A stretch of DNA of 64,000 nucleotides, taken from NCBI GenBank assembly GCA_003598015.1, contig QZKE01000047.1, forward strand, positions 1 through 64,000, in the 5' to 3' direction. The position numbers were made by a program, and so were the translations under genes. Origin of the DNA: Actinomycetota bacterium (GTDB lineage: Bacteria; Actinomycetota; Geothermincolia; Geothermincolales; RBG-13-55-18). The notes under the pieces are model-generated. The model was not told where the DNA came from. It ran no database searches and saw only the letters and a list, made by a program, of their open reading frames with translations. Positions 7,972-11,546 of the stretch are shown here, piece after piece. Each line of letters begins with the position of its first letter. The stretch's first letter is position 1.

Positions 7972-10194
7972 TTGAGTGCGAGGGGACCGAAGTCGGAGAA
8001 GGGTGAAGCAACGGCAAAGGCCGGCAGGAGCGGTCAAAGAGAAGGAGTACGGCTGCTGCTTACCTCCACCCGCTTCATCGCCTCGCTGTTCTGGCTGACC
8101 ATCATCGTCGCCACCATGGTCTTCGTGCTGCCCTACTCGCAGCGCAGCGAATCACCCGTCTTCTACGGCTTCGTAGTCCTTTCGATCCTCGTGTTCCTTG
8201 GACACCATTATTTCCCTTACGAAGGATATCATCCGGTGGCCTACTTCCTGCTCCTGCTGGCGACAGATGCCCTGATCGCCGTGATGGTCTACTTGACGGG
8301 TGGCAGCCAGACCAGTATTTCCCTTCTCTACCTGACGGTCATCATCTTCGCTTCTGCATACTTCGAGTTACTCGAAACCATGCTGATCGTGGCGGTGACC
8401 TGCGCTTTCTATTTCCTGCCGCTCTCCTACGAAACCGTATCCAGCGAGACCCTCAAGGGAATGGCCATGGCGGTGCCTATATATTTCATCATCGCCCTCT
8501 GTGGGTTCTTCGTTATCAGCAAAGCGCGTGAAAAGGAGAGGGAGAAACAGGCATTGACCTTCCTTTTCGATCAGGCCGACATGAAGCGCAGGGAGCTTTC
8601 GACCCTCTACGCCGTATCGCTGAAATTCGCATCAACCCTGGACGATGAAGAGATGATGGACATCCTCGTCGATAATGCCAGCGAACTCGTGCCCAACGAC
8701 GCCATCGCGGTCTCGCTGCTGGAGGCTCCGGAGCACCTGCGCATCAAGGCGTATCGCGGCTTAGGTGAAGAGGAATCGGCTGCTCTGGTCGCTGTCTGCG
8801 ACGACAATCCCCTCTACATCTCGGCATCGGCGGTGCTTCCGGTGATCCTCAAGGACACGGAGGAGGACCCGCGTTTCCGCGCCTACCTTGATGGGATCGA
8901 CTTCACGTCGATGATCGCCGTGCCGCTTTACGCAAGCTCGAGCGTGATCGGCGTTCTCAGCTGTTTCTCCAAGGCAAGCGGGGCTTTCGACGATGATGCA
9001 GCGAGGATCCTGCTTACCCTGTCGAGCGAAGCCGCATTGGCAATGGAGAAAGCCGCGCTGTACCAGACCACGCTGGAAGACAAGAACAAGATCGAGACGA
9101 TCATAAACAGCCTCACGGACGGTCTTATGGTCCTCGATCACGAGGGAAGGATGGTATTGGCGAATCCGTTCATAGCACGCCTGATGGATCTCTCGGACAG
9201 AGACTACGACAGGTACCTTGCGGATATACTGCGGAGCTCGAATTACGGGATAGAATTCAAGGACAAGAGCTTCAATGAAGCTTTGCAGGAAGTGCTCCGG
9301 ACCGGGAAGAGCCTGAAGAACGAGATGGTGATCGAAACAGAACCGCCCATTATATTCCAGGTGTTCTGGGTACCCCTCTCGGATGTAGATGGCAGGGTGA
9401 TGGGGGCGGTAATACTGCTGCACGACATCACCGATTTCGTGGAACTTGACCGCATGAAATCTGACTTCATATCGATTGTGTCGCATGAATTGAAGACACC
9501 CCTCACTTCCATAAAGGGTTTCGTGCGCCTGATCGCGGCGGAGAGAGTCGGCCCGGTGACCGAAAAGCAGCGCCATTACCTGGACGTAGTGCAGAAGCAG
9601 ACGGAATCGCTGACAACGCTCATAAACGACCTGCTCGACCTATCCAGGATCGAGGCCGGCATTATCGAGGTGCGTCATGAGCCGCTGGTTATCGGCGAAG
9701 TCATAGGGGGAGTAGTGCAGCAACTGGATAACCTCGCCCAGGAAAAGGGCATAACGCTGAGGGTGGAAGCGGCGGAGGAACTTCCACTGATCAGCGGAGA
9801 CGGCGCGAGGTTGGGACAGGTTTTTATGAACCTTATCCATAACGCCATAAAGTTCACCCCGCATGGTGGGGATGTAAGGGTTAAAGTCGTCGCGTTGCAG
9901 GATTACTGCCTGGTGAAGATAAGCGATAACGGCATTGGTATATCCGCCCAGGACCTGCCGAGGATATTCGATAAATTCTACCAGGTTGATTCGTCCTCCA
10001 CGCGGCGGCAGAGCGGCACAGGTCTGGGTCTTTCCATCAGCAAGCAGCTGGTGACCGCACATGGCGGCGAGATATGGGTGAACAGCACGAAAGGCAAAGG
10101 CACCACCTTCAGCCTGACCCTTCCCTTGCATGCCCAACAAACGGCTTCGGGGCCGCGCAAGGAACCGGAAATAGGTGAGGCGGCTACGGGATGA
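7972..10194 (+). CDS. Membrane-bound sensor histidine kinase (TM-GAF-PAS-HisKA-HATPase)
   Basis: A hybrid-free sensor kinase of 740 aa. About six hydrophobic segments lie between residues 33 and 185, followed by a GAF domain (about 210-363), a PAS domain (about 377-490, IINSLTDGLMVLDHEG), a HisKA domain with phosphoacceptor His505 in SIVSHELKTPL, and an HATPase domain with NLIHNAIKFTP, DNGIGI and GTGLGLSIS. It presumably phosphorylates the receiver protein encoded just upstream. The TTG start at 7972 is the best in-frame candidate but its ribosome-binding site (AAGGA) is very close, so the exact N-terminus is uncertain. Confidence 0.9.
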   Translation: MSARGPKSEKGEATAKAGRSGQREGVRLLLTSTRFIASLFWLTIIVATMVFVLPYSQRSESPVFYGFVVLSILVFLGHHYFPYEGYHPVAYFLLLLATDALIAVMVYLTGGSQTSISLLYLTVIIFASAYFELLETMLIVAVTCAFYFLPLSYETVSSETLKGMAMAVPIYFIIALCGFFVISKAREKEREKQALTFLFDQADMKRRELSTLYAVSLKFASTLDDEEMMDILVDNASELVPNDAIAVSLLEAPEHLRIKAYRGLGEEESAALVAVCDDNPLYISASAVLPVILKDTEEDPRFRAYLDGIDFTSMIAVPLYASSSVIGVLSCFSKASGAFDDDAARILLTLSSEAALAMEKAALYQTTLEDKNKIETIINSLTDGLMVLDHEGRMVLANPFIARLMDLSDRDYDRYLADILRSSNYGIEFKDKSFNEALQEVLRTGKSLKNEMVIETEPPIIFQVFWVPLSDVDGRVMGAVILLHDITDFVELDRMKSDFISIVSHELKTPLTSIKGFVRLIAAERVGPVTEKQRHYLDVVQKQTESLTTLINDLLDLSRIEAGIIEVRHEPLVIGEVIGGVVQQLDNLAQEKGITLRVEAAEELPLISGDGARLGQVFMNLIHNAIKFTPHGGDVRVKVVALQDYCLVKISDNGIGISAQDLPRIFDKFYQVDSSSTRRQSGTGLGLSISKQLVTAHGGEIWVNSTKGKGTTFSLTLPLHAQQTASGPRKEPEIGEAATG

Positions 10195-10239
10195 CATATT
10201 GCCTATAACAAGGCGATACACTATACTTCAACCTTGAAA

Positions 10240-10356
10240 ACGCTTAACAGCGAAGCAGAAGCGGTTCCGCTTCTCACCCTGCGGTTATTGTACCGACAGG
10301 GTTTGTGAGAGCACTGGCCCGTGGATAGCGGGAGGAAGCCGCTATCCTTTTGTTTT
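10240..10356 (+). promoter_or_regulatory. Structured leader of infC operon (L20-leader-like attenuator)
   Basis: Three hairpins precede infC. GAAGCGG/CCGCTTC lies near 10258-10273. A larger stem pairs CTCACCCTG (about 10273) with CAGGGTTTGTGAG and encloses CGGT/ACCG. An intrinsic terminator follows. The TTCTCACC segment is shared by the first two structures, so they could compete. Operons starting infC-rpmI-rplT are commonly controlled by L20 binding a leader RNA; that this leader does so is an inference from position and structure. Confidence 0.6.
10323..10356 (+). terminator. Intrinsic terminator in the infC leader
   Basis: GATAGCGG (within 10323-10331) pairs with CCGCTATC (within 10339-10347) as a 9-bp stem with a 7-nt loop, followed immediately by TTTTGTTTT. 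It lies 5' of the infC Shine-Dalgarno AAGGAGGG at 10361, so full-length mRNA requires readthrough. This fits transcription attenuation. Confidence 0.8.
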
Positions 10357-10375
10357 GGTCAAGGAGGGATGCCAG

Positions 10376-10951
10376 ATAGACAAGAACGCTCGTATTAACG
10401 AGGGGATTAGGGCAAGAGAGGTCCGTCTCGTGGGTCCGGAGGGCGACCAGATAGGCATCAAGTCCATCGAGGAAGCCCTGGCAATGGCGGATGAAATGGA
10501 CCTGGACCTGGTTGAGGTAGCACCCCAGGCTCAGCCCCCGGTCTGCAAGATCATGGACTATGGAAAGTACAGGTACGAGCAGACGGTCAAGATGAAGGAA
10601 GCGCGCAAGAAGCAGAGTGTCATCGTCTATAAAGAGATGAAACTGCGCCCCAAGATAGACCGGCACGACTACGAGATAAAGAGAAAGCACATAGAGAGGT
10701 TCCTGAAATCAGGCTACAAGGTCAAAGTGACCATCATGTTCCGGGGCAGGGAGATGAGCCACACCGAGCTTGGAAATCACCTCCTGCAGCAGCTCGCTGA
10801 GGAACTTGTTGAGCTTGGGACAGTGGAATCAATGCCCAAGCTGGACGGCCGCAATATGCAGATGATCATGGCGCCGCTGGCCACGGCGAAGAAGGACGGA
10901 GGAAAACATGCCAAAGATGAAGACACACCGGGGAGCGGCCAAGAGGTTTGA
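10376..10951 (+). CDS. infC: Translation initiation factor IF-3, with apparent AUA start codon
   Basis: IF-3 binds the 30S subunit and checks start-codon pairing. The conserved core is clear: [39 protein letters not shown] and the C-terminal domain FRGREMSH. No ATG, GTG or TTG is suitably placed. A strong Shine-Dalgarno AAGGAGGG (10361-10368) is followed 7 nt later by ATA at 10376, giving 191 aa beginning DKNARINEG. The in-frame TTG at 10355 lies upstream of that site and within the terminator T-run. Rare start codons in infC are a known autoregulation device. The 3' end overlaps rpmI by 44 nt. Confidence 0.92.
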
Positions 10952-11105
10952 GATAACCGGCGGAGGCAAAATCCGGCGCAGAAAGGCATACGGCAGCCAT
11001 CTTCTCAGCAAGAAGAGCTCGCGACGCAAGCGGGGCTATCGTTTGAAGACCGAGATATCCGAACACGATGCCGACAGTGTAAAAAAACTCCTGCGGCAAG
11101 GGTAG
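10908..11105 (+). CDS. rpmI: Large ribosomal subunit protein bL35
   Basis: A 65-aa, strongly basic ribosomal protein with the usual L35 pattern: [18 protein letters not shown] at the N-terminus and the [12 protein letters not shown] stretch. The start lies inside infC, 44 nt before its stop, with GGAGGAAA upstream (GACGGAGGAAAACATG). This suggests translational coupling between IF-3 and L35. Confidence 0.96.
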
Positions 11106-11121
11106 ATAGCGCTATCCACGG
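11105..11121 (+). other. Palindrome in the rpmI-rplT spacer, complementary to the operon leader
   Basis: GATAGCGCTATC (11105-11116) is a perfect 12-bp palindrome. CGCTATCCACGG (11110-11121) is also the exact reverse complement of CCGTGGATAGCG at 10319-10330, the 5' strand of the leader terminator. It could form a local hairpin or a long-range helix. The regulatory meaning is an inference. Confidence 0.5.
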
Positions 11122-11159
11122 ATGACGCATTTTATAAGGTACGAAAGGACTGAGTAGAC

Positions 11160-11546
11160 ATGTCCAGGACTAGACATTCCGTGGCAAGGAAAAAGAGAAA
11201 AAAGAAGATAATGCGCATGGCCAAGGGATACCGCGGCGCCCGCAGCAGGTCATACCGCAGTGCCAACGAACAGGTCATGCACTCTCTGCAATATGCGTAT
11301 CGCGACCGACGGACCAAGAAGAGGGACTTCAGGCGTCTGTGGATAGCGCGTATAAACGCCGCCGCTAGACAGAACGGACTTTCCTACAGCAGGTTCATAC
11401 AGGGATTGAGGCTGGCGGAAATCGACGTGAACCGAAAGATCCTGGCGGAGATGGCGGTTTCCGATCCCGCTTCCTTCTCTGAGCTGGTAAAAAAGGCGAA
11501 AGATAACCTCGAGAAAGAGCCGGAGGTTGAGGAGGCGAGTGTCTGA
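11160..11546 (+). CDS. rplT: Large ribosomal subunit protein bL20
   Basis: Binds 23S rRNA early in 50S assembly and, in several bacteria, represses its own operon. The 128-aa basic sequence has the family hallmarks [36 protein letters not shown] and [13 protein letters not shown]. The C-terminal extension is acidic ([11 protein letters not shown]), longer than in many L20 proteins. AAGGAC lies upstream of the ATG. It follows rpmI after 54 nt that contain a palindrome. Confidence 0.96.

Follow-up and report, generated by a model that had tools for sequence, protein, structure and literature searches.

The window analysed here, a 64,000-nt stretch of DNA from an Actinomycetota bacterium (contig QZKE01000047.1, positions 1 to 64,000 of the forward strand), contains the genes infC, rpmI, and rplT, which encode IF3, L35, and L20, behind a structured leader that ends in an intrinsic terminator (Table 1). 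A histidine kinase gene lies just upstream of the promoter assigned to this leader and ends at position 10194. Among the 13 members of the window's family (L001–L013), 12 carry the promoter pattern of TTG[CT], 17 nt, and TATACT, with L010 as the exception, and all 13 have ATA at the position of the infC start. AUA fits a pattern known from other bacteria, in which IF3 regulates its own gene at rare start codons. The initial annotation had placed a structured leader with a terminator at 10240–10356; both the terminator and these coordinates are right, and the element is best given as 10253–10356, with the promoter at 10199–10227.

Table 1. Features of the leader and the downstream genes in the window.
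Feature	Position	Strand	Remarks
Candidate promoter, TTGCCT–17 nt–TATACT	10199..10227	+	Single match, with 1.5 expected; weak alone
Unpaired AAGC	10253..10256	+	Its AA is the one said to be common to L20 leaders and 23S rRNA
Hairpin 1, AGAAGCG/CGCUUCU, loop GUUC	10257..10274	+	Arms 10257–10263 and 10268–10274
C linker and hairpin 2 (ACCCUGCGGU ... ACCG A CAGGGU)	10275..10302	+	Hairpin 2 proper, 10276–10302
Proposed antiterminator	10265..10333	+	10265–10271 and 10274–10277 with 10327–10333 and 10321–10324
Intrinsic terminator, GGATAGCGG / CCGCTATCC and TTTTGTTTT	10323..10356	+	Stem 10323–10331/10339–10347, then U tract
Shine–Dalgarno sequence of infC, AAGGAGG	10361..10367	+	From sequence
infC (IF3), start read as AUA	10376..10951	+	Pfam IF3_N and IF3_C; start inferred from spacing and alignment
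rpmI (L35)	10908..11105	+	Pfam Ribosomal_L35p
rplT (L20)	11160..11546	+	Pfam Ribosomal_L20; presumed ligand

In terms of folding, the region 10228–10375 was more stable than its dinucleotide-shuffled versions (z = –2.9; 2 of 200 shuffles as good), and so was the shorter region 10228–10320 (z = –2.5; 1 of 200). Hairpin 1 was present in the minimum-energy fold at eight of the nine transcript ends tried. With the transcript ending at 10356, hairpin 1 was open in the best fold, in which hairpin 2 and the terminator remained, and it was also open in the centroid of the 10228–10375 fold. Six terminator-like sites occurred between 9000 and 12600 versus 3.1 (sd 2.1) in shuffled sequences, a count that is unremarkable by itself. 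The 3' arm of hairpin 1 is the segment near 10270 that had been suggested from the letters to be shared between alternative hairpins, and this suggestion was borne out: 10265–10277 is able to pair with 10321–10333 in a duplex of –14.9 kcal/mol. In hairpin 2, C10277–G10301 and C10278–G10300 are two consecutive invariant C–G pairs.

The Rfam model of the L20 leader (RF00558, L20_leader), to which the B. subtilis infC leader belongs, matched the window at 10247–10359 over the full length of the model (positions 1–127) when its threshold was lowered, with a score of 30.3 bits and an E-value of 0.0012 in a search of 1251 bases. The initial annotation had not confirmed that the leader matches the described L20 leader families; the match found here is in the right place and orientation, and its score falls below the gathering score of 58.7 bits. 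At the gathering scores of Rfam, only a tRNA was found in the window. We then have, from genome scans with the unmodified model at E ≤ 0.001, the window leader as the sole match in its own 3.79-Mb genome (E = 8.3e-4) and matches in 42 of 296 Actinomycetota genomes, one of which passed the gathering score. The best match lay directly upstream of infC and on the same strand in all 42 matching genomes, the positions having been compared by hand with those of infC alone among the three genes, as located by a protein search. Weaker additional matches, G048:C8 and G251:C3, were located elsewhere. Among 14 control genomes, the three that were matched were those of B. subtilis, Thermotoga maritima, and Lactococcus lactis. 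One Actinomycetota genome, G301, had two infC matches (G301:C37 and G301:C215), each with its own leader, which represent either a paralogue or a mixed assembly. As for other Rfam models, a match to Hrs1 at 11081–11132 in the window (E = 3.7) was taken as chance. Matches to tmRNA were seen beside two infC loci (L015, 339–413; L017, 2489–2563) at 42.1 bits, against a gathering score of 47 bits, and L015 also had a weak permuted-tmRNA match.

The window leader shares with RF00558 its position before infC–rpmI–rplT, the AAG followed by hairpin 1 (AGAAGC/GCUUCU), and a second hairpin that has CC:GG near its base and is followed by a terminator. It differs in reading CUCACC where the model consensus is CUCgCC, in the fuller pairing of hairpin 2, and in lacking most of the A/U-rich spacer that precedes the terminator in the model. 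Judged by the Rfam threshold, the window leader stands outside RF00558, yet the alignment, the position, the conserved contacts, and the covariation described below indicate that it would work like a member and is very probably homologous to that leader.

Comparative evidence was gathered with a script that looked for hairpin 1 with C[CT]C[AG]CC after it and gave preference to sequences with a preceding AAG. It returned candidates in 55 of 70 upstream regions and none in the remaining 15. Alignment A2 was made from 38 of these 55 candidates; the other 17 were excluded for being doubtful, long, or weak (L029, L035, L038, L039, L041, L043, L044, L048, L050, L051, L053, L054, L057, L058, L061, L062, and L067). 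In A2, 93.2% of the stem cells were paired, both-side changes were present in 47 cells versus 16 in shuffles, and the covariation score was 0.278, versus 0.178 in shuffled alignments and at most 0.122 when the partner was slid. Helix 1 was paired in 98.2% of its cells, with both-side changes in two of its six pairs, and its forms ranged from AGAAGC/GCUUCU through AGGGGC/GCUCCU to AGGGGC/GCCCCU. Hairpin 2 had both-side changes in seven of ten pairs; its A–U pair and the two C–G pairs were constant in the 38 rows of A2 and also in two alignments described below, A3 (24 rows) and A4 (25 rows). From the A2 alignment alone, RNAalifold returned both stems in a shorter form of five pairs each. For a narrower alignment of 14 rows (A1), consisting of the window's family and one neighbour, it returned hairpin 1, hairpin 2, and the terminator, whose stem pairs were kept in all 14 rows, with a both-side change in only 1 of 21 pairs. 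Covariation is thus scant within the family; the signal comes from the wider relatives. The AA and the two C–G pairs were invariant in 87 aligned leaders (A2, 38; A3, 24; A4, 25), of which the 63 rows of A2 and A4 were partly chosen by motif and those of A3 by the model R1 described next; the motif letters of A2 are partly invariant by choice, because the script selected on them.

R1 was built from the 38 A2 leaders, all of them from Actinomycetota. In the window, it gave the element 58.4 bits, and every other score was 13 bits or lower. Over the 296 genomes, it matched 71 at E ≤ 0.01, comprising 32 that had supplied a model row and 39 that had not. The match lay upstream of infC and on the same strand in 30 of these 39, as counted by hand in a set that includes some genomes whose upstream regions had been inspected earlier and left unused in the model. 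Of these 30 matches, 29 were within 250 nt of infC and one (G058) was at 339 nt. All 26 non-model matches with E < 1e-4 were upstream of infC, and the nine failures (G004, G065, G083, G089, G099, G137, G142, G181, and G199) all had E ≥ 1.1e-4. In G004, infC was not found by the protein search, and the sole R1 match was weak (E = 0.0084). Weak second matches in G021, G146, and G176 lay away from infC.

We also collected 40 extra leader regions from outside the model, 21 around R1 matches and 19 around RF00558 matches. R1 matched 24 of them at E ≤ 0.001, and the 16 without a match all came from RF00558 matches. In the alignment of these 24 held-out leaders (A3), whose rows were both chosen and aligned by R1 and are hence biased towards the model, 92.9% of the cells were paired, and the covariation score was 0.422, versus 0.211 shuffled and at most 0.146 slid; hairpin 1 was 98.6% paired, with both-side changes in four of six pairs. 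According to the initial annotation, stems without covariation in related genomes would count against a regulatory leader; when the comparison was run, the stems covaried in both the seed and the held-out leaders. Beyond the Actinomycetota, R1 detected a leader upstream of infC at locus L088, from a Clostridiales genome (29.6 bits; E = 2.3e-6), and at E ≤ 0.1 it found no leader in 13 other loci from other phyla (L089–L101, three of which are clostridial). One further locus of the window's family, L014 (G008), has the kinase gene upstream and a hairpin with a U tract before infC. It had no R1 match, the domain of hairpins 1 and 2 was not detected in it, and these hairpins seem to have been lost.

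A Streptomyces-like class of leaders was recognised from L058, L061, and L062, which suggested the motif AAG[CU]-GGAG(G)..(C)CUCC-C-ACC. By script, this motif was present in 27 of 30 new regions of the class, or in 30 of 33 when L058, L061, and L062 are counted. Its frequency in mononucleotide-shuffled regions was 1.9%, and none of the 33 reverse complements contained it. One of the three regions of the class that lacked it, L145, had only 13 nt of upstream sequence. The alignment A4 contains 25 of 29 leaders of this class (L147, L160, L163, and L166 were left out), the script having dropped L144, L145, L148, and L151 beforehand. In A4, 91.4% of the cells were paired, and the covariation score was 0.278, versus 0.110 shuffled and at most 0.104 slid. 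A second model, R2, recovered L148 and L151, and not L144. Over the 296 genomes, R2 matched 25, and in 22 of them the match was upstream of infC (three of these 22 had supplied model rows); the failures, G006, G226, and G299, all had E ≥ 0.006. Across the three scans, the leader lies upstream of infC in at least 103 of the 296 Actinomycetota genomes (62 by R1, including 32 in the model, a further 19 by RF00558, and a further 22 by R2), a hand count that is a lower bound given the strict filters and that assumes identical genomes in all three scans. In the Streptomyces-like leaders L058, L061, L062, and L142–L171, CCGGUC or CGGUC often follows hairpin 2, and by eye GACCG stands upstream of AAG in several, which may form an outer stem.

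In L062 (genome G052), the Rfam family Scr1601 (RF02830) matched with 171 bits at 695–920 on the minus strand, and the match spans the AAGUGGAGGCU..CUCCCACC hairpin, hairpin 2, and the U-tract terminator. RF02830 exceeded its cut-off in 3 of 149 genomes, all of one genus, and each of these matches ended 92–96 nt upstream of the one to infC. A fourth match (G049:C35; 29.6 bits) was below the cut-off and away from infC, and in the genome of the window RF02830, whose gathering score is 100 bits, had no match at E ≤ 0.001. Compared with the window, RF02830 has a short, G-rich hairpin 1 (GGAG/CUCC) and a longer spacing to the terminator. In the excerpted text of PMC8388888, Vockenhuber et al. are credited with confirming 11 RNAs in S. 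coelicolor, scr1601 among them, and the scr1601 of S. ambofaciens turned up among UTRs. From its position and structure, Scr1601, which is filed as a Streptomyces small RNA, is likely to be a misfiled infC leader that has ended at its own terminator.

A terminator was present between hairpin 2 and infC in all 38 A2 leaders versus 9.9% of mononucleotide-shuffled regions, and a terminator stem of at least 7 pairs was present in 37 of the 38 versus 1.8%. At the 49 loci with a recognisable terminator, we compared the complementarity between the terminator 5' arm and the hairpin-1 3' strand with that of each locus's own shuffles. It was better at p < 0.1 in 18 of the 49 loci, and the Kolmogorov–Smirnov p-value was about 1e-8, in a set whose loci are related and whose p-values are not independent. 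Four other leader segments used as controls reached p < 0.1 in 4 to 6 of 49 loci, with slight departures from uniformity for the hairpin-1 5' arm (p = 0.04) and the hairpin-2 5' strand (p = 0.02). The duplexes of hairpin 1 with its own terminator averaged –10.8 kcal/mol, versus –9.7 kcal/mol for swapped pairs, a small difference (p = 0.03). When the comparison was repeated with another random seed, 17 of the 49 loci had p < 0.1, and all 17 were among the 36 loci outside the window's family. In L022, L038, L040, and L059, which belong to several other lineages, the complementarity was far above that of shuffles, with 0 of 200 as good in each. These results suggest that an antiterminator formed by hairpin 1 and the terminator is likely in the wider group. 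Six leaders of one class (L018, L019, L021, L022, L023, and L027) carry an additional conserved element, GGUUAUCCAUA after hairpin 2 and GGAUA a few bases on, and L030 has only the first part of this element.

The on/off attenuator that had been considered plausible from the window alone is supported by the comparative evidence, which points to L20 as the likely ligand. We consider it quite probable that the leader is an L20-type transcription attenuator of infC–rpmI–rplT. In the mechanism that we propose, RNA polymerase would start at about 10233 and make hairpins 1 and 2; together with the unpaired AA, these would constitute the L20-binding domain. Without an excess of L20, the 3' side of hairpin 1 (roughly 10265–10277) would be free to pair with the 5' arm of the terminator at 10321–10333, and once this antiterminator has formed, transcription would continue into infC–rpmI–rplT. 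When free L20 exceeds 23S rRNA, L20 would bind to and hold hairpins 1 and 2, the terminator at 10323–10347 would form, and transcription would end at about 10355, before infC. The direction of this switch is adopted by analogy from the B. subtilis leader, in which, according to the excerpted texts of PMC6097659 and PMC10931766, the terminator is stabilised by L20 binding.

The part of this mechanism that is most open to an alternative is the antiterminator. The same L20-binding leader might work without the proposed pairing, either because the terminator is on by default, because another strand acts as the antiterminator, or because L20 mainly blocks the translation of infC. In accordance with this alternative, the forced antiterminator was less stable than the free fold at all three transcript lengths tried, with a deficit of 4.8 kcal/mol for the end at 10331, 6.6 kcal/mol for 10335, and 8.9 kcal/mol for 10356. 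Within the window's family, the pairing was not significantly above shuffles, since 0 of 13 loci had p < 0.1 (0.11 for the window, L001, and 0.43–0.70 for L003–L005). The 5' CCUUGA of the window can also pair with UCAAGG beside the Shine–Dalgarno sequence of infC; however, UCAAGG is absent from L002–L005, and the sequestration of the Shine–Dalgarno sequence by this pairing is retained only as part of the present alternative. The complementarity in 17 of the 36 loci outside the family, together with the lack of an equal among 200 shuffles in L022, L038, L040, and L059, also argues against a leader that lacks the pairing, and we regard this alternative as unlikely. For the window itself, the proposed antiterminator is plausible, and its weakness in the family possibly reflects another antiterminator, kinetic folding, or a switch that is off by default.

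It is decidedly improbable that the same architecture serves a ligand other than L20, such as IF3, L35, or a complex. The operon also encodes IF3 and L35, and the AUA start of infC is of the type at which IF3 acts in other bacteria. Against this stand the homology to RF00558, in which L20 binding by the B. subtilis member is described in the excerpted text of PMC6097659, and the invariant AA and C–G pairs, which PMC7247131 ties to the L20 site of 23S rRNA. It is scarcely credible that the element is a plain terminator for the histidine kinase gene upstream and that its hairpins serve only to stabilise mRNA. Although that gene ends just upstream, a promoter conserved in the family lies between it and the hairpins, the hairpins covary and match RF00558, and the element goes with infC, given that just 12 of the 27 upstream regions examined (≤1500 nt each) contained the kinase, all 12 in the window's family, whereas the leader and its terminator persist in other families.

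An L20-type attenuator in the window can also be set beside the other known L20 systems. The L20 sites in the rpmI region of E. coli have the ligand and the gene cluster in common with the window, according to the excerpted text of PMC10931766. They differ from it in that they have no terminator and regulate translation, by means of an irregular hairpin and a long-range pseudoknot. As a candidate for E. coli-like long-range pairing in the window, we considered a perfect 12-nt complement between 10319–10330 and 11110–11121, in the gap between rpmI and rplT. Of 30 loci, only that of the window has it, and it was rejected for its lack of conservation; it is either chance or a recent inverted copy. 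The L20 r-leader candidate of Deltaproteobacteria has, like the window, an AA and two G–C pairs, and is set apart from it by its description as another structural scaffold, as far as the excerpted text of PMC7247131 goes. The likeness of an AA with two consecutive G–C pairs to the L20 site of 23S rRNA is drawn in the same excerpt.

In the published descriptions, as excerpted, L20 leaders have been placed in few phyla. The L20 motif is confined to Firmicutes and Thermotogales in PMC3766115, the genomes of which include Corynebacteriaceae and Mycobacteriaceae, and this paper suggests re-examining lineages without known motifs. The B. subtilis-type L20 leader is narrowly a Firmicutes leader in PMC6097659, and PMC7247131 gives L20 leaders in Gammaproteobacteria and Firmicutes, adds Deltaproteobacteria, and describes phylum-spanning leaders as unusual. 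Our literature search, which covered parts of the papers retrieved and outside the scope of which Choonee et al. 2007 and Deiorio-Haggar et al. 2013 fall, found no report of an Actinomycetota L20 leader. In M. tuberculosis, the infC 5' UTR is 326 nt long, and its abundance is 2.6 to 4.9 times that of the coding region, according to the excerpted text of PMC3207917.

We lean, with some reserve, towards a joint reading of these observations. The L20 leader may be old and phylum-wide in Actinomycetota, dating from before the split from Firmicutes or from an early spread, and the drift of hairpin 1 towards G-rich forms, which score below the Rfam threshold, may be why it has escaped notice. On the same reading, scr1601 would be a prematurely terminated infC leader and no trans-acting sRNA, and the long and abundant infC 5' UTR of mycobacteria may be another such product.

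Its occurrence in at least 103 of 296 genomes makes the leader a working hypothesis for how the balance of IF3, L35, and L20 may be maintained across the Actinomycetota, a large phylum of medical and industrial importance. A named Streptomyces RNA, Scr1601, gains a likely identity, and the many natural variants of the leader provide material on the evolution of one protein–RNA contact.
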